A stretch of DNA of 39,180 bases. Source: a virus. The notes under the pieces are model-generated. The model ran no database searches. It was not told where the DNA came from and saw nothing but the letters and a program-made list of their open reading frames with translations. The stretch is from positions 1 to 39,180 of IMG/VR virus record IMGVR_UViG_3300030101_000862. One strand, given 5' to 3'. Below, piece after piece: positions 11,871 to 25,247 of the stretch (position 1 is the first letter of the stretch; every line of letters starts with the position of its first letter). The position numbers were made by a program, and so were the translations under genes.

Positions 11871-12559
11871 TTGCACCGAAGATTTCTATCAAAGGCCAAC
11901 AGTTTCGTGCTGTCAGTGGTGACGAGGAGACTGTACTCGACAAGAGTATAGATGTTGTCATTGTCGGTGCGAACCCAAAGCTATCCAAATCTTGGTATGC
12001 AGAGGAATGGTCAGAAGATAGTCAATCTTCTACTCCCGATTGCTACTCACTAGATGGTGTGTATCCAAACAAGAACAGCCATGCCATGCAGAATGACATG
12101 TGTGTTTCTTGCCCACAGAATGCTTGGGGTTCTAGGACTACACCGACAGGGAATAAAGTTAAGGCTTGTGTCGATCAGAAACGATTGGCAGTTGTCTTAG
12201 CAGAGGGCCCATTTAGTGAAGCATACTTACTACAAGTTACTCCTGCGTCTTTGAAGAACTTGAATGCTTATCAAAAAGAATTGTCCATGCGTGGTATTGC
12301 ACCCGAGATAGTAAGGACAAGGATAGAGTTTGATACACTAGCCGCTTTCCCGAAGCTACGATTTAGCTTCCGTGGATTCAATAGTGATAAGAACCAAACT
12401 CTTGTCGATGAGCATTTGGGGACTAAACAGACTAGGATTGTCACAGGAGAACTTGCTGTTGAAACAGGACAGTCCGCCCACGGATTCGATGATTTCGGTT
12501 TTGTCGAAGAAGATGGATTTATATTAACCAATGAACTAGGAGGTTCAGACTATGAATAA
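11867..12559 (+). CDS. Conserved four-Cys phage protein next to the SSB
   Basis: The protein is 230 aa. Four cysteines, C59, C79, C82 and C101, form a likely metal site (PDC, CVSCPQNAWGS, KAC). The surrounding segment VGANPKLSKSWYA and the WGS element are conserved in my memory of similar phage proteins found beside gp2.5-like SSBs. The function is not established. A DNA-binding or SSB-partner role is a reasonable inference from position. The C-terminus is acidic (DDFGFVEEDGF). It overlaps the SSB gene by 8 nt. Confidence 0.7.
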   Translation: MIAPKISIKGQQFRAVSGDEETVLDKSIDVVIVGANPKLSKSWYAEEWSEDSQSSTPDCYSLDGVYPNKNSHAMQNDMCVSCPQNAWGSRTTPTGNKVKACVDQKRLAVVLAEGPFSEAYLLQVTPASLKNLNAYQKELSMRGIAPEIVRTRIEFDTLAAFPKLRFSFRGFNSDKNQTLVDEHLGTKQTRIVTGELAVETGQSAHGFDDFGFVEEDGFILTNELGGSDYE

Positions 12560-16706: not shown

Positions 16707-19700
16707 CTAATTTGCCTCTACTCCATAGATATCTAGCAATTCATTGATGGTTGGGCGTATCGTAGTTGGTGCAAACTTCCTATATCTGTTCACACTATTC
16801 TTCTTAGCAGACTTCAATGATTTATTTGCAGAGCCAACAAAGTCTTTAAAGTAGAACTCTGTACCTTTGGTATCTCTGTTATATTCTTTTACAAAGTTTA
16901 AGATTCTACGAACCTCATCTCTGTCACCTTCTAGTTTAGCTTTAATATAGGCTTGCTTGTAGTGAGCCTTCATGTCTTGAACATAGGCTTGAGTCTGCTT
17001 TGTCATTCTAATGATATCGTTCTGCACCATAACTTGATATGGATAGAAACCCATCATTCTAAATACAGAAGTCATAACACCTACATCATTATCCAAGACT
17101 GTACCATCTGCTCTAGTAATCTTTCCATCGTGTAGATAAGTCATACCATCAACCAAACCTCTTACAGCAGAAGATGGTGCATCTCTAAGTATATCTGCGA
17201 ATCGTGTTGTTCCATCTTTCAGGCCCACAGTCTCTGCACCATACCTGAGAAGTTGTGCTCCTGTGCCAAACAACCCTGCCATCCCAGAGTACACTGGCCC
17301 AAAGAAGTTCTCTGCTTCTCTCCAATACTCTCCAGCATGACTCTTTGCTTTGAAAGCACCCGACAATGGAATCAAATCACCAAAGCCAAGTCTTGTAGAT
17401 ATTGTTGCTCCTGTCCACTGGTCAAGAAATCCTCGCATGAAGTACGGCGAAGCGCCGGGGATAAAAGCATCAACAAGCCGTGCAGTTTCTTCCTCTACGC
17501 TTTTCATCTTGATACCAAACTTCTGAGCAAGAGTATCAATCAAGTCCATCAAGTCGTCAGCAAATGGTAGTCCTTTCATACCTGCCATCAAGAACAGCAT
17601 AGTCAACATAGCTATTCTGCCCTTCTTATCCATACCTTTCATCAACTGTACGCTAACAATCACAAACTGTTTATACATGAAGATATATTGTAGGAAGTTA
17701 CCTCTAGCCATCTCGGGTCTGTTATACATAGCGTATTCACCCTGTGATGTATTCACTGCTTTCGTAGCAAACTCTTGAGATTGAAGCGCTACTTCAGCAG
17801 CTTCGGCTTCCGGAAGGTTAGAGATATTAGTTCCAAATCGGTTGGATGCTAGTATTCTTTCTCGTTCCATTCTATAAGCAGCTAAGAAAGTGGTACGTCT
17901 GTTAAGTTGTTCTGTGTAAGAAAACGCAGACATCCATGTTTTAATTAAACCATTATAGTTATTACTACTTCTTCCGCCTCGTGATGTACCAACAAGCGCA
18001 TTAAATTGTGCAGCCTGCAACACACCTGCGGCTGTAGCATCTAGCATAGCGTCAGCTTCATCAGGAGTTAGACCGTGCTGTTGTTGTAGTCTAGTAGCTT
18101 CTGCTTGTAGCGCTGGGTCTCGCGTTGGATTAGCAACCCGAACCATGTAGTCATAGTTAGATAACCTAAAGTTACCAGCATTATAAACTGCTCTACCCAT
18201 AGCACCTGCAGATTTAGCTAAACCAAAACCACCACCATAACCTCTGTTTGGATTATAACTACCAAGATAAGGTATAGCGTGAGTAACCATAGACATCATG
18301 TTTACTGCAGCAGTAGCAATAGAACCACCAAGTTGTAGTAGTACAGCATATAGTTTAAACCTAGAACCAATCTCACCAGATAGAATGTCTTCTGTTGAAT
18401 CTTGAATATTTGCTGCATCTGCATAGAACTGCAGTAATTTTTTAGCTTCTTCTCTGTACGCTTCACCACGACCTTCGTTTGGTATAGCGTTACCATTTCT
18501 ATCTTTAGCTTGAACAGGAGCATTTTGATCAGCCATATGACTATACTGATATGCGTAAGCATCATATGCTTTTCTAGCTGTTTCTCTTTGTGCTTCTGTG
18601 CCTCGTGTTGTAGCTTCTTCTAGTCTCTGTAGTTTTTCAGGATCACCTCTAAACTTACTGTTGCTTGCCATAATATCGTTTAGCTGCCATGAGTAAGTAA
18701 TCTTACCTGCTACATGAGCTTGTGTTTCTAAGTGTTCTGCAACACTTCTGATAACATCTTTATCCCAACCTACGTTACCTGACCTCTGCAAACTTTTTCT
18801 TGCAGTAGACTGAACACCAGTTAGAGCTGTAATAATACGTTGTCGTTCTTGAGGTGTAAGACCAATATCTAAACGCTGAACCACACTCATAAACTCTGTA
18901 AGATTCATAGAGTTAGTAAGTGGTTGTGACTGTCTAGCTTCTGATACTTGTGCTCTAAACTGTATGTTTCTAGTTTGCCCAGACTTATCTCTCATTTGAT
19001 AAGTTATAGGGTTATTACTCTCTGCTACCATATCTTGCAGTTTGACAGCTATATCTTTTGCATCTTGTTCAGCTGCAGTCTGGAAAAATGGTATAGAACC
19101 AGCGTATGTTTCTTCTAACTCAACAGCTTGACCTGTGCTTGCGTCATATGCCTGCATACGAACTTGCCACTTACCTCGTCTGGTAAATGGTACATACCCT
19201 GTTACAAGAGTACGTCTTGCAGAAAAGTCAGCATTAATAGCCCTTGTATCTAACAAGAACAAGTTTTGAATAGCATTAGTTACATCGAAAGAAGTATCTT
19301 TGTTAAATTGTAAAGCTCTCAACCTTGGTAAAGCATCAATGATATCTCTATACCTATCAGTCTGAAACTCTGCAGTGTTATCAAATGTTGGATTACCATT
19401 GGCGTCTGTACTTCTACCAAACCAGTCATCTATCTTTTTATCTTCCCACATAGCTCTGTTGACAGCAGCTAAGAACCTATTAGCTTTCTGTATTGAATCA
19501 TCAATAGGCCCATCTAACGTAGCATTCTCTTGGTATAGACTAGAGTATTCTTCTATAACTCTTCTAAATACAGCAACGTCTGCCTCACTTGGTATTGCAC
19601 CACCTTCTCCTACAAAGTTTGAAAAGTTTTCTAGTGCCTGTTCTCTTTGTCCTTTGACTGCATCCATATTAGCCATAAGAACATCAATGGCAGCTTGATT

Positions 19701-22700
19701 TACAGCTGCTCTGTTTTCAGAGTAAATACGCCATGTGTTATCAGTGACAGTAAAATTCTTGAATACATCTTGTTGCATAGAGTTTGTAACAGTAAACCCT
19801 CGTTCAAACTCTTCTCTGGATACTGTACCCATTTCTTCTAGTCGTTGACGAACAGCTTCATTTATTTGTGGATCGCCTGAATCCATACCCTGCATAAGGT
19901 TATCTAAATCTTTTATAATCTGGTCTGTGTTTTGGTTTGCTTTAAGTAACGCACCATAAGCAAGCATCTCTCCTGCCTGCTCAAGCTCAAGTTTAGTTGG
20001 CCCTTTACTACTAAGCCCCATCCAATCTGGTGTATGTGTAAACGCTGTAAGTCTTTCATACTCAGACATTGCTCGTCTTGTTTTACCAGATTGATTCTGA
20101 AAAATTTTGAATATGTCTGACAAACCCTCACTACGTTGGGCTTTATTATCTAAGGTCTGTAATGCTTCAGACATCTCAGCAAACATTCGGCTTACTGCTT
20201 TGCCTTTACCCCTTGGAAGATTTTTTACTAGCTCAGCTACACTATCAAACCCACCATACTTTCCTGATCTACGATTGAAAGCATCAGCTTGAAAAAAGTT
20301 AGTAGCGTGGTCAGCTCGTATATCTTCTATTTGGAATCGACCATACTCACTTTCTGATTGTAGGTCTTTTAGGTTAAGAGCTAACTGTTGCGCGCCTACA
20401 ACACCTCTGCCACCTGAGCGTAAGTTCTTACGAGATTGATTTAGGAAGTACCGGGTAAGATCAGGATCGCCTTCTACAAAACCACCTAGACCTATAACCT
20501 CAAGTACAGATTTAATTACATTTTTAAGTCGAGCTATCATGCTGACATCAAGTGCAGCAGCTCGTTCAGCAAGCACTTCTTCAACAGCTTCTAGTAAATC
20601 TATCTTAGGATTAGCTCTTCGTATAATATCAGCTGCAGCTCTGACATGACCATCCGTTTTGTATATTTCACGGAATATAAAATCTAGTCTGTTACGAGGC
20701 ATGAACGCACGAAAACCAAAGTGACCTAATGCTTCGTGAGCAACAGTCAATCTGATCTGTTCTTTAGTTCGTGCATAGTCACTAAAAATAATAACTTGAT
20801 CACCAACAGAATAACCAACAGCTTCTACTGTATCAAAGTCACCAAGTGGTCTACCTGCTTTGGCACGATTATATAGTTCGGGATTGGTTCTAGCCAGTTC
20901 TTGTACGTTAGCTACAACAGTAACAGTTGGTTTTACTTTTAGTTTTTTAAGGACTTGTTTAATAACAAGGTCTATCTCACCTCTACCCAAAGGTTCTGTA
21001 GGCTTACCATCTGCCCTACGGAAATTACCATCTTCAGCTTTAGAATCCATTTCCCGCATAATTTCAGCGGTAGGTTGTAGCCTGTTTACTCTTGCGTTTT
21101 CACGCTGAGTACGTTTACCTTTCTTGAGTAGACGCTGACCTTCTGCCTCTTGTGACCTTCTTTCGGTCTGTGTTTCAGGCGTTGGGTCAGGTACAATACG
21201 ACCATTATATAATCTTTTAGTTTTTAGATTACCCCTAGCATCAAAGAAATCTCTAAGTGAATAACCATTAGCCATCAAATAATTTCTATCTGAGTTAGCA
21301 AAAATAGTTTGGATACGGTTAAGCTCTCTACTACCAGTAGATGTGCCGCCCTCTTGAGTTCGTTGTTCTACAGAAGCCCTGTCAGATGTAAGCTCAACTA
21401 CAGGATTATAACCACTGAATGATTTAAACTCATATCTTTCTAGGTGTGAGGTAAGTATATCTTCTAACAGCCTAGAGTTTTCTAGCTGTATCTGTGCTGT
21501 TTTTTCAGCAGCAACTTTTCTACCTTTTTTACCCAGAGCTGTTTCATATGCTTTTCTAAAAGCATCAAAGTCAATCTTATCTCCAGCAGCTTGTTGTCTT
21601 CGTAGAGCATTAAGTACCCTATCAGCAGTATCTTGTCCTAGCACCTCACCTTGAGTTTCTTGTGAGATAGCTTGGTTAATAGCTTCTTGCTGTGGTGATG
21701 TATACCACGCTGGCATATTAGTAAGAGCCACTTGAACTTCAGCAAGTAGATGATTTTTAGTAGCATACTCTAACCAAGGTTTGTTCTTACCTTTGTTAAA
21801 ACCTCTAGTAAATGTACCTTCTAGTGGCTGTGCGTTAGCTTGAGTTACAAACGCATCATGTAATGCTTTACGTTGCTGTGGTGTAAATTCAGTTTTATTT
21901 AGATACTCAATAGCACTAGCTTGAATACCTTGTTTAGTAAGGTTTGAGTCAACTTCAAAGAATGCAAAAGCCATGAGCTGGTGTGCATATGACCATGCTT
22001 CACCATGCTTGGTAAAATCAGTAGTTGTGTCAAACTTAGCTTTGAACTCATTGAGTTCTTCTTGTGCTGTTAGCTTTAGGTTGTAGTAGTTATCATCAAC
22101 AATTTGTTGTGCAATATCACCATTTACAGCATTACCAGCTACTAACTGACTCCACTGTTCTTTAGCTTGTTGAGGTAATCTATCTAGTGGTACAGTACCA
22201 GCAGGTGCTAGGTTGTTCCATGCTTCTATAGGTGTTTGACCTGTAACATCAATATAAACTGGGCTTATACGAGAGTCTGATTCCTGAGCTTGTTTTTGAC
22301 GAGTTTCTTGGCGAGCTTCCCGAAGCGCTCGTTGTTCTTCTTGTTGATTCGCTGTTGTCTGGCGTACTGACGCTTTTCTGAGGCGCTCTTGACCCCTACT
22401 CTGGTCGGCAACTTGGCCCCCTTGGGTGTCTCTTCCTCGAACTGCGCTGCCAGATTCGGTTTGTTGGCGTACAGCCACTTCTTCTGTGCTTCCGACTTGA
22501 ACGGCATCTGTCCTCCTTTGTGGTGTTGGTAATGATGGGTATGAAATAAAAGTCTCCCCTGTTTCAGGATCAACTCGTTCTGTACCTCTACCTACTCTTT
22601 CGATAGGTGCTTGCCCTGTAAGCATTGCTCCTGTTATAGGTTGACCTGTTTCTTCTACTACTGGCCCTGCTGATAGTCTTCTACGAGGTCTATCAAAACT

Positions 22701-25247
22701 TTCTATAATACCTTCCATCTCTGCAATAATATTATCTTGTTCTGCCAAATCGTTATTATCTATAGCAACTTGAAAGTCATCTATAAACTCTTGGATGTTT
22801 TCCATAGGTATATTATTAGCTACCATCTGATTAACCAGTGGTGTTATCTCAGGAGCAGGAGCTTCAGGAAATGGTAATCTCATCTGCCCTTCTTGTTCTA
22901 GCTCAGCAATAGTAGGCTCTGCAGCAACAGCCGCTTGACCCCTTCGTAATGCCTCTCGTCTTGCACTAAACTTACGTTTAGGTGCAGCCATTCCCGGCAA
23001 ACTTAGTTGTGTAGGTGTTCTCTGTGGCACAGCAATTTGTGCTTGCTCACGAGCTTTACGCTCCTCAACTTCTTGAGTAAGCCTTTCGTTTTCTTTTAAT
23101 ATCTGTTCTACCCTAGCATTTTCTAACTGAGCCACTTGCTCATTTAGTCTTTGCTGTTCAGCTAAATCAAACTCTTGCTGTCTTTGTGCTCGTTCAGCTT
23201 CTTCTGCTCTAAGTCTTTGTTGCTCAGCAAGTTGATTCTGTTGCTCTTGGATTCTTGTGTTAGCAGCCTGTAGAAGTTGTTGTCCTATGGCTGTCTCTTG
23301 TGCTGCCGGGGTAGCCAAGTCTTGTGTTGTTTGCGCTACATCAGGAGTTGGTAGCGTTAGTTGTCCTGCTGCTTCTAGCTCAGCTTGTGTAGGCTGTGGT
23401 TGTGCGTTAGCTTGCTGTGCTGCAGCCAATGCTTCACCAGCTGTCTGTTGAGGTTCTGATAATCTATTTAGTTCAGCCGCAGTTGTTTGTTCAGGTGGGA
23501 ACATAATCCCTTGCTGACCTTCAGCTTGACCCGGAATAACCTGTTGGTTTGTCTGAACTACTGTATCTAACGGCTCTCCCGCCCTAATACCTTGTGCACC
23601 TGCAACAAAATCAGGAGGCCCAGACACTCTAGTAACCGCTGGGGTAGGAGCAGGGAGAGCCGCAGCACCGCCTGCACCCGGCAACTGACCCTGTGGAGGA
23701 GTCTCAGAGCCTACAATTTCGCCGTCAAGGGGAGGAGCAGGTAGTAATTTTTGATCCGCTTGTGGATTATCTTTATTAAGTATGTTAGTTGGTTCGCCTG
23801 CTTTGAGTAAATTAGCGCCACCACCTAGTGGGCCACCAATAGCAAAGCCTGCTGCAAAAGAGTTAATTAGTCGTCTAGTAGTTTCTTCATCGCCAAACGA
23901 TTGATCTGTACCATATAAGAGTAAAGATTCTTGACCAAGTTCTGTAAGACCTTCAAGTGTACCACCGACTCCGACACCTTTACCTACTCGTTTAGCAACA
24001 CCACCTGATTTAAGAACATTTGGCCCAAGTCCAAAGATACGACTTGCCAAGAAAAATTCTGGTATTACTTCCATAGCTGCATATGGTATAGCCAATCCTG
24101 CTGCTGTACCTCTATCACCTACGCCTGTATCTCTTACTTCGCCATAGATATCAGCAACACCCATAGCATAAGAACTAATAACTGATCCGCCAAACGCACC
24201 GCCTGCTACAGCTTGTCCTTTACCTATCTTACCTGCTTTTAGTGCGCCTACACCTACAGAGTCTTCAAATTTTTGTTTACCTAAACGCTTGAGAAACTCT
24301 TGTCCTGTCATAGCTGTGCCACCGGGGGTGACTATAAAAGCATTTGGGTTTTTAATTTTTGCTGCAGCGGTTAGACCTGAAAACTCACGAAGAAGTTTTT
24401 TCTCACCTTTGGAAAGAGCTTGACCTTTCATGTATTTTTTAGCAGCTGATGCTACCGCTAGTTTTACTGAGTCTTTACCTAGTAGTGCATATATAGCACC
24501 ACCAGTTGCTGTAAATGGGTTAGCACCACCACCTGCGACTGCACCTGCACCTGCACCAGCCAAAGCAAATGCAATAGACTCTATTAAGTTTGGCCCTTGT
24601 TGTGCAAAGTTAGCAACGAACCAGTCAATAGCACCACCTTTAAAATATTCACCATCTTCACTCTTAAACTCTCTTTGAAATGGTTGGTTGTAGTATAACT
24701 CTTTGACTGCATTATCTACTAACTCTTGACCATAATCTTCAAACCCAAGAAACTGAGCACCTCTACCAGCAAGAAGTTTTAAGTTATCTGTACCAATCTC
24801 AAAGTTTCTTGCAAACAAAGTACCCAAACTAGGGTCTTCAATATTATTCATAAATGTTTTGTAAGAATCAGGAGATACAAACTGCCAATCACCATCAGGC
24901 TGTTTAGCCCTAGGTCGGTCTAGATATCCTCTGGATTCTGCATCTAGTGCTGATTGTTTGTCATCAGCATTATACAATGCACCATTAACAAACATCTCGT
25001 TTGTCGATGGGTTAAACAACACAAGTGGCCCAGTCTCAGGTGGTTTATCAAATCCACCCAGTAAAGCACCCTCTAGTTGTTTGTCTAGTTCTTGTTGTTG
25101 TACGAGTTGATCAGCAAGTCCTGCTTTTAATCCTTGGAGTCCTGACCCCATAACGACAGGCTCGAAAGGATTACCAGCTCCGGGCGCAGATGTAGCGTCA
25201 TAAAATGAGCTGTCAAATGCTTTTAGCCCTGCTTTTTTTGGAGCCAT
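16707..25247 (-). CDS. Giant internal virion/DNA-ejection protein (PLxRFG-type, zincin-like)
   Basis: The protein is 2846 aa and is last in the structural operon, at the T7 gp16 position. The N-terminal ~480 residues hold Gly/Ala-rich membrane-type segments (about 220-245) and EGLTELGQESLLLYG (about 425), as in phage ejection proteins. Residues about 640-745 are a Q/E/R-rich coiled coil. H1504-E-A-L-G-H1509 in LTVAHEALGHFGFR resembles the zincin-like motif of large phage polyvalent proteins, but it has three residues between HE and H, not the usual two. Hydrophobic helices lie near 2296-2320 and 2540, and GLPFADDLMDLID (about 2560) with TRLGFGDLIP matches the C-terminal block of PLxRFG-domain proteins. 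Residues 914-995 are low-complexity Q/R/E-rich and overlie a nested gene. Confidence 0.85.
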   Translation of the reverse strand: MAPKKAGLKAFDSSFYDATSAPGAGNPFEPVVMGSGLQGLKAGLADQLVQQQELDKQLEGALLGGFDKPPETGPLVLFNPSTNEMFVNGALYNADDKQSALDAESRGYLDRPRAKQPDGDWQFVSPDSYKTFMNNIEDPSLGTLFARNFEIGTDNLKLLAGRGAQFLGFEDYGQELVDNAVKELYYNQPFQREFKSEDGEYFKGGAIDWFVANFAQQGPNLIESIAFALAGAGAGAVAGGGANPFTATGGAIYALLGKDSVKLAVASAAKKYMKGQALSKGEKKLLREFSGLTAAAKIKNPNAFIVTPGGTAMTGQEFLKRLGKQKFEDSVGVGALKAGKIGKGQAVAGGAFGGSVISSYAMGVADIYGEVRDTGVGDRGTAAGLAIPYAAMEVIPEFFLASRIFGLGPNVLKSGGVAKRVGKGVGVGGTLEGLTELGQESLLLYGTDQSFGDEETTRRLINSFAAGFAIGGPLGGGANLLKAGEPTNILNKDNPQADQKLLPAPPLDGEIVGSETPPQGQLPGAGGAAALPAPTPAVTRVSGPPDFVAGAQGIRAGEPLDTVVQTNQQVIPGQAEGQQGIMFPPEQTTAAELNRLSEPQQTAGEALAAAQQANAQPQPTQAELEAAGQLTLPTPDVAQTTQDLATPAAQETAIGQQLLQAANTRIQEQQNQLAEQQRLRAEEAERAQRQQEFDLAEQQRLNEQVAQLENARVEQILKENERLTQEVEERKAREQAQIAVPQRTPTQLSLPGMAAPKRKFSARREALRRGQAAVAAEPTIAELEQEGQMRLPFPEAPAPEITPLVNQMVANNIPMENIQEFIDDFQVAIDNNDLAEQDNIIAEMEGIIESFDRPRRRLSAGPVVEETGQPITGAMLTGQAPIERVGRGTERVDPETGETFISYPSLPTPQRRTDAVQVGSTEEVAVRQQTESGSAVRGRDTQGGQVADQSRGQERLRKASVRQTTANQQEEQRALREARQETRQKQAQESDSRISPVYIDVTGQTPIEAWNNLAPAGTVPLDRLPQQAKEQWSQLVAGNAVNGDIAQQIVDDNYYNLKLTAQEELNEFKAKFDTTTDFTKHGEAWSYAHQLMAFAFFEVDSNLTKQGIQASAIEYLNKTEFTPQQRKALHDAFVTQANAQPLEGTFTRGFNKGKNKPWLEYATKNHLLAEVQVALTNMPAWYTSPQQEAINQAISQETQGEVLGQDTADRVLNALRRQQAAGDKIDFDAFRKAYETALGKKGRKVAAEKTAQIQLENSRLLEDILTSHLERYEFKSFSGYNPVVELTSDRASVEQRTQEGGTSTGSRELNRIQTIFANSDRNYLMANGYSLRDFFDARGNLKTKRLYNGRIVPDPTPETQTERRSQEAEGQRLLKKGKRTQRENARVNRLQPTAEIMREMDSKAEDGNFRRADGKPTEPLGRGEIDLVIKQVLKKLKVKPTVTVVANVQELARTNPELYNRAKAGRPLGDFDTVEAVGYSVGDQVIIFSDYARTKEQIRLTVAHEALGHFGFRAFMPRNRLDFIFREIYKTDGHVRAAADIIRRANPKIDLLEAVEEVLAERAAALDVSMIARLKNVIKSVLEVIGLGGFVEGDPDLTRYFLNQSRKNLRSGGRGVVGAQQLALNLKDLQSESEYGRFQIEDIRADHATNFFQADAFNRRSGKYGGFDSVAELVKNLPRGKGKAVSRMFAEMSEALQTLDNKAQRSEGLSDIFKIFQNQSGKTRRAMSEYERLTAFTHTPDWMGLSSKGPTKLELEQAGEMLAYGALLKANQNTDQIIKDLDNLMQGMDSGDPQINEAVRQRLEEMGTVSREEFERGFTVTNSMQQDVFKNFTVTDNTWRIYSENRAAVNQAAIDVLMANMDAVKGQREQALENFSNFVGEGGAIPSEADVAVFRRVIEEYSSLYQENATLDGPIDDSIQKANRFLAAVNRAMWEDKKIDDWFGRSTDANGNPTFDNTAEFQTDRYRDIIDALPRLRALQFNKDTSFDVTNAIQNLFLLDTRAINADFSARRTLVTGYVPFTRRGKWQVRMQAYDASTGQAVELEETYAGSIPFFQTAAEQDAKDIAVKLQDMVAESNNPITYQMRDKSGQTRNIQFRAQVSEARQSQPLTNSMNLTEFMSVVQRLDIGLTPQERQRIITALTGVQSTARKSLQRSGNVGWDKDVIRSVAEHLETQAHVAGKITYSWQLNDIMASNSKFRGDPEKLQRLEEATTRGTEAQRETARKAYDAYAYQYSHMADQNAPVQAKDRNGNAIPNEGRGEAYREEAKKLLQFYADAANIQDSTEDILSGEIGSRFKLYAVLLQLGGSIATAAVNMMSMVTHAIPYLGSYNPNRGYGGGFGLAKSAGAMGRAVYNAGNFRLSNYDYMVRVANPTRDPALQAEATRLQQQHGLTPDEADAMLDATAAGVLQAAQFNALVGTSRGGRSSNNYNGLIKTWMSAFSYTEQLNRRTTFLAAYRMERERILASNRFGTNISNLPEAEAAEVALQSQEFATKAVNTSQGEYAMYNRPEMARGNFLQYIFMYKQFVIVSVQLMKGMDKKGRIAMLTMLFLMAGMKGLPFADDLMDLIDTLAQKFGIKMKSVEEETARLVDAFIPGASPYFMRGFLDQWTGATISTRLGFGDLIPLSGAFKAKSHAGEYWREAENFFGPVYSGMAGLFGTGAQLLRYGAETVGLKDGTTRFADILRDAPSSAVRGLVDGMTYLHDGKITRADGTVLDNDVGVMTSVFRMMGFYPYQVMVQNDIIRMTKQTQAYVQDMKAHYKQAYIKAKLEGDRDEVRRILNFVKEYNRDTKGTEFYFKDFVGSANKSLKSAKKNSVNRYRKFAPTTIRPTINELLDIYGVEAN
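22265..22507 (-). CDS. Nested gene: MPFKSEAQ-family small phage protein
   Basis: An 80-aa protein is read in a different frame from the giant gene around it. It starts MPFKSEAQKKWLYANKPN and continues with EEETPKGAKLPTRV. That is the pattern of a conserved free-standing small phage protein (MPFKSxAQxxxxYA..., then TPKGxKLPxRV). The rest is Lys/Arg/Asn-rich. ATG 22507 has a perfect AGGAGG 4 nt upstream. About 60 of 80 codons end in G or C, unlike the AT-rich genes nearby, and local GC is about 55% by hand count. These facts together argue for a real gene, not a shadow. The molecular role of the family is not known to me. Confidence 0.82.
   Translation of the reverse strand: MPFKSEAQKKWLYANKPNLAAQFEEETPKGAKLPTRVGVKSASEKRQYARQQRINKKNNERFGKLAKKLVKNKLRNQTLV
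22512..22517 (-). promoter_or_regulatory. Shine-Dalgarno site of the nested gene
   Basis: The minus strand reads AAAGGAGGACAGATG. The AGGAGG core lies 4 nt from the nested start codon and inside the coding sequence of the giant protein. It decides the start of the nested gene over the upstream in-frame ATG at 22573, which has no such site. Confidence 0.8.

Follow-up and report, generated by a model that had tools for sequence, protein, structure and literature searches.

A conserved small frame nested out of frame in a giant phage gene, and the exchangeable slot that holds it

Can a complete, conserved gene lie out of frame inside a much larger phage gene, and what would maintain it there? 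The question is raised by a viral stretch of 39,180 nucleotides (IMG/VR record IMGVR_UViG_3300030101_000862, positions 1 to 39,180; here called the window), in which an earlier note, made from the letters alone, had pointed to an 80-codon frame within a giant structural gene. To our knowledge, good support for a long gene nested on the same strand is rare, and the examples are usually single young cases.

The giant host gene and the frame nested in it

The host is a single open reading frame (ORF) of 2846 codons (Table 1), and it scores 170.4 bits against the NCBIfam model NF032893 (cut-off, 100), which makes it a member of the PLxRFG group. Its neighbors include genes for a transglycosylase-domain protein, an internal virion protein, a holin, an endolysin, and a tail fiber. 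Very large phage proteins of the PLxRFG type are treated as polyvalent or ejected virion proteins (Iyer et al. 2017, PMC5512222), and by analogy with that literature the giant of the window may be ejected as well. Sequence entropy along the giant is lowest at residues 560 to 800, homologs align poorly across the linker, and the slot is flanked by two conserved blocks of the giant. Near residue 1530 of the giant (window positions 16707 to 25247), there is a zinc-metallopeptidase-like motif of the HExxxH type, VAHEALGH; no Pfam model matches this motif.

The nested frame begins with an ATG at 22507, continues for 80 codons, and ends with a TAA at 22265, overlapping giant residues 914 to 995. The particulars that the earlier note had listed all proved exact on rechecking: this start and length, an AGGAGG 4 nt upstream, the overlapped residues, G or C in the third position of 60 of the 80 codons, and GC counts of 99/180 (22321 to 22500), 19/60 (22681 to 22740), and 20/60 (22081 to 22140). 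The GC contrast that it had drawn from these counts is weaker than stated, since both comparison patches are low ones and GC rises to 56% in stretches of 80 codons elsewhere in the giant. The third position of the nested gene coincides with the GC-rich first codon position of the giant, at which GC is 0.57 outside the nest and 0.76 inside, so the contrast follows from dual coding. High GC was therefore rejected as a mark of recent transfer, and a foreign or recent arrival is likewise unsupported, the nest being an old one in the window's clade, which comprises 29 giants.

ORF length was rejected as evidence for a gene in the same way: when the giant was shuffled with genome-like synonymous codons, a +1-frame ORF of at least 80 codons starting with ATG appeared in 911 of 2000 shuffles (46%). 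What speaks for a nested gene beyond chance is homology, together with the start signal and the pattern of substitutions. Of 51 distinct nested starts, 40 (78%) follow a Shine-Dalgarno (SD) core, compared with 107 (4%) of the 2645 control ATGs that these giants have in that frame; at 11 of the 51 nested starts, the standard core is missing.

Table 1. Features of the window and of related records discussed in the text
Feature	Position	Strand	Remarks and basis
Giant host gene, 2846 aa, PLxRFG-domain protein of the injected/polyvalent type	16707..25247	-	ORF, NF032893, homologs in viral contigs
PLxRFG (tail-700) domain, giant residues 2146-2797	16857..18812	-	NF032893; also phrog_11358
Low-complexity linker holding the slot, giant residues about 545-1000	22248..23615	-	Translation, entropy, alignment
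Nested 80-aa gene, MPFKS family	22265..22507	-	+1 frame relative to the giant; translation, homologs, same-frame nesting, selection
Shine-Dalgarno sequence AGGAGG	22512..22517	-	Exactly 4 nt ahead of the nested ATG; sequence
Giant halves in L150	L150:1073-3661 and L150:6755-12445		Divided at the slot
76-codon ORF with GGAGG, Erwinia phage	NC_016767.1 29540-29767 (L343:2501-2728)		Also in Pavtok and Stean (L344, L345)

Relatives of the nested product and selection on both frames

A scan of viral contigs with the 80-amino-acid product found 106 relatives. Among the best 80 of these 106, nesting in a giant ORF is seen in 35, without exception in one and the same frame; the rest are free-standing, overlap a neighbor partially, or form the N-terminal domain of a larger protein. 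The nested product has the family motif MPFKSxAQ...P..A...LPxxV, and residues M1, P2, S5, Q8, P17, A20, and P34 are invariant in 52 MPFKS sequences. Free-standing relatives begin at the same M as the nested gene, and their presence in viral contigs bears out the earlier view that MPFKSxAQ...KLPxRV is the pattern of a free-standing small phage protein. The profile of phrog_1375 matches the nested product at E=0.0046 and one relative at E=0.0004; taken together, MPFKS proteins and those of a second family, MPLKKG, give weak to moderate profile matches to PHROG 1375 and PHROG 2423. Because these groups were built from called genes, nested members are not expected there. All 23 nest-bearing records examined have a single MPFKS copy, with no second free-standing copy and no clear MPLKKG copy alongside it; the record of L111 has one weak MPLKKG-like match.

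Three records have the MPFKS motif as the N-terminal part of proteins of 425, 118, and 168 amino acids (L015:10001, L022:10001, and L061:10001, respectively), two of them being phage contigs of about 200 kb, and the 425-amino-acid protein has a weak match to M48-type zinc peptidases. In Prochlorococcus phage P-RSP2, a free-standing MPFKS gene (HQ332139.1, 6855-7034, minus strand; L001:12001-12180) is missing from the annotation, and both of its ends are covered by other annotated ORFs.

Does selection act on the nested frame, on the giant frame, or on both? Among four closely related giants, synonymous differences in the giant frame per comparable codon amount to 0.042 on the nested gene versus 0.320 +/- 0.063 (standard deviation) elsewhere; in a set of eight giants, the values are 0.133 and 0.399 +/- 0.040. 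The nested stretch is the minimum of giant-frame synonymous change along the whole giant. Difference rates at giant codon positions 1, 2, and 3 are 0.236, 0.177, and 0.156 inside the nest versus 0.127, 0.080, and 0.304 outside, the inversion that one expects when constraint comes mainly from the nested frame. Nested identity is 0.79, compared with a mean of 0.29 (maximum, 0.42) after synonymous recoding of the giant frame; likewise, identities to the window's protein of 0.61 to 0.86 compare with only 0.25 to 0.34 under such recoding. In every pair compared, the nested protein is conserved more than the overlapping giant reading. The latter is a Q/R/E-rich linker that changes faster in amino acids than the nested protein, as fits the by-product that the earlier note had seen in it. 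The giant frame is itself under selection, since in L122 the insert is gone and the giant frame continues uninterrupted. Dual selection thus acts on both frames. Homologs, same-frame nesting, the SD sequence, and synonymous suppression all agree with the initial proposal of a complete conserved gene nested out of frame, and the nested ORF is a real gene maintained by natural selection.

A slot in which small genes are exchanged

How stable is the association between giant and insert? Giants were re-collected through their C-terminal region, the nested gene not being used. Those without MPFKS mostly hold another small gene (MPLKKGSSNKVVSANV..., the MPLKKG family) at the same place, in the same frame, and with its own SD sequence. 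On a tree of 48 giants, 37 have MPFKS, 8 have MPLKKG, 2 have neither, and 1 is split at the slot; a nested small gene therefore occupies the slot in 45 of 48, and at least eight insert changes are required. All 29 giants of the window's clade have MPFKS. The giants of L119 (MPLKKG), L127 (MPFKS), and L122 (neither) are 87 to 94% identical, with 87% between L119 and L127. Those of L154 (MPLKKG) and L159 (MPFKS) are 79% identical and differ in their inserts: the SD sequence and ATGCC are common to both, and the coding part downstream is replaced. The slot content is thus absent or replaced between similar giants, a point that the earlier note had proposed to check for residues 914 to 995, and the slot is a site where small genes are exchanged among otherwise similar giants. 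Since L122, L129, and several others have no nested gene, it is not indispensable everywhere. The two families are apparently separate, as homology between MPFKS and MPLKKG is not supported by hhalign (probability, 0.5%); predicted helices span residues 6-15, 17-26, and 42-75 in MPFKS and 9-26 and 38-53 in MPLKKG, the MPLKKG model being of moderate confidence.

A separate survey from the giant N terminus gave 48 MPFKS, 12 MPLKKG, and 10 none by profile, with 10 further giants cut off before the slot. The 10 without a profile match include L325, with a diverged MPFKS-like ORF and a perfect SD sequence; L323, which is apparently similar; and L322, which is split, its N-terminal giant gene stopping at the slot (host end at 12556). 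In L150, the giant also stops at the slot; a second gene continues it beyond about 3 kb of other genes. The nested ORF of L323 and L325, at about giant codon 743-750, is strongly diverged (LKSQKQLRFLQRSNPQLAEKL...LPESL) and lies below the profile threshold; in L325, AGGAGGT stands ahead of a GTG start.

The nest is also found in giants without detectable homology to that of the window, namely, L029/L033 and L071/L080 (both MPFKS) and L208/L209 (MPLKKG), of which L071/L080 have a weak LPD1 domain and L208/L209 an LPD38 domain. Altogether there are at least four families of host giants, between which no homology is detectable, and the nested frame is identical (+1) in all of them. A reason for the shared frame may be that the giant reading can meet a stop only where the nested third position is T, and such a T can nearly always be avoided by synonymous choice. 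We consider it rather probable that this is a recurrent exchangeable slot, in which at least two unrelated packaging-module gene families are placed in a disordered linker of at least four giant families without detectable homology, sharing the +1 frame, and replace one another behind a ribosome-binding site (RBS) that stays in place, so that phages would routinely hide a functional gene from annotation in their largest virion gene. MPFKS and MPLKKG are absent from the giants of eight cultured phages. The cultured Erwinia phages PEp14, Pavtok, and Stean have an SD-led conserved ORF in the +1 frame of a DarB-like giant, near codon 821; it is 64-74% identical across the three phages, and its codon-position pattern suggests selection. 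This ORF is possibly a third nested family, a lead from three sequences.

Proposed function, origin, and comparison with known systems

The nested product is basic, with 21 K+R versus 6 D+E. Its translation has neither the hydrophobic segment nor the lipobox cysteine of an embedded lysis gene, and it contains no nuclease or other significant Pfam domain. AlphaFold models it as three helices (mean pLDDT, 87); this fold has no PDB match and no solved relative, and in BFVD it matches only uncharacterized phage proteins, so assignment of function by fold was dropped. Free-standing MPFKS genes adjoin or lie near terminase or portal genes in L021, L072, L076, L077, and phage 023Pt_psg01, and a large free-standing group (L018, L023, L026, L031, and relatives) has a primase-like gene on one side and ribonucleotide reductase on the other. 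In nearly all cases, the start of free-standing MPLKKG is only a few bases away from the end of a large ORF, which is recognized as the portal in most of those tested, and GroES comes next where tested. Judging from the gene neighborhood of its free-standing relatives, the nested product is probably a small basic helical protein of the head or packaging module. In the group next to ribonucleotide reductase (L018/L023/L026/L031), MPFKS shares bases with the 3' end of an ORF of roughly 100 codons, and the two frames are related as they are in the giant nests.

We put the probability at roughly 80% that a functional gene with its own RBS lies inside the giant message, that its product belongs to the packaging module, and that the linker is a tolerant site of insertion and exchange. 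Ribosomes would start at the nested gene's own RBS within the message, and other ribosomes would translate this stretch in the giant frame, as disordered linker; translation by internal initiation is most likely, given the conserved SD sequence. Made together with the giant virion-ejected protein from one message, the product would work around the portal and terminase in the head/DNA-packaging module. Small genes would enter and be swapped at the tolerant linker, and after insertion, synonymous choice in the small gene would keep the giant frame open.

How did the nest arise? The earlier note had allowed either insertion or fusion of two ORFs around the gene. We infer the direction of origin, and insertion into the tolerant linker has the better support, since otherwise similar giants have exchanged the insert and hold MPFKS, MPLKKG, or none. 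A fusion would have joined two proteins of about 900 and 1900 amino acids around a pre-existing small gene, with the exchanges coming later; it concerns origin only and is compatible with the function proposed above. The slot does lie between two conserved blocks, and the division of the L150 giant into two genes there, like the end of the L322 N-terminal gene, would suit such a history. However, L150 falls within the fused giants on the tree, next to L111, so that a secondary split is simpler, and unrelated giants show the same nesting; we retain fusion as the less likely of the two origins. It is improbable that the insert is a selfish mobile element spreading by homing, as out-of-frame HNH endonucleases do in phage methylases (ShiLan, PMC11855218). 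Patchy presence, exchange between similar giants, and the shared arrangement, with a gene lying out of frame within a host ORF, are what this would predict, but the product of 45-90 amino acids has no nuclease or other significant Pfam domain, the insert is old and fixed in the window's clade, it has a standard RBS, and its relatives sit in packaging modules.

Two further explanations deny a separately started product. The stretch could be a fossil, a once free-standing gene that was inserted and lost its translation, leaving the giant frame to use it as a linker. A few giants have indeed lost the nested gene without visible harm to the giant frame, but the nested frame is open and conserved over very diverged giants, its SD sequence is maintained, and synonymous suppression and the substitution pattern track the nested frame, all of which make a fossil highly unlikely. 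Programmed frameshifting into the +1 frame would replace internal initiation by a protein made of the giant's N-terminal 900 residues and an MPFKS tail. The +1 frame of the window is open for 28 codons upstream of the ATG, and L150 shows that the N-terminal half can exist alone; against this, relatives have only a short open stretch ahead of the ATG, of variable length (about 5 to 46 codons), the SD sequence and start codon are conserved, and free-standing relatives start at the same M. We accordingly give frameshifting very little credence and prefer internal initiation from the gene's own RBS.

Gene callers do not normally put a small gene inside a long one. Members of these families are probably missing from protein databases wherever they are nested, and the slot would be overlooked by standard annotation. 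With dozens of relatives, two unrelated insert families, losses, a split giant, and pairs of similar giants that differ in their inserts, one can trace directly how a nested gene arrives, is exchanged, and is lost.

Embedding as such has a familiar example in the lambda spanins, in which Rz1, embedded in Rz, is the lipoprotein partner in lysis. The MPFKS nest resembles this pair (PMC5295617, PMC6139136) in being a small phage gene that has a start of its own and lies in a different frame within a longer gene on the same strand; it differs in its basic helical product without membrane or lipoprotein signal and in its host, a giant virion-type gene. The hosts themselves are like the known PLxRFG/polyvalent giants (NF032893; PMC5512222), the window's being a PLxRFG-domain protein and others carrying LPD domains; a word search of PMC5512222 found no nested or overlapping genes described in such giants. 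The inserts have counterparts in PHROG 1375 and PHROG 2423, matched by MPFKS and MPLKKG proteins, respectively, and neither is annotated with a function. The closest architecture is that of phage DNA methylases with out-of-frame HNH insertions (ShiLan domain), where the insert is an HNH endonuclease of 160-195 amino acids with no detectable RBS (PMC11855218). There, too, a complete gene lies in another frame of a phage gene, the host frame stays open as a low-information loop, and presence among relatives is patchy (PMC11855218). In contrast, the inserts described here are basic proteins of 45-90 amino acids from two unrelated families, with an RBS, one copy per genome, and long fixation in the window's clade; the nested product is predicted to form three helices and has no HNH or other nuclease match in Pfam. 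A description of the MPFKS nest was not found in the literature searched, which is part of the whole literature. Fully nested phage genes are known; a nest that serves as an exchangeable slot in several unrelated giants appears to be new.
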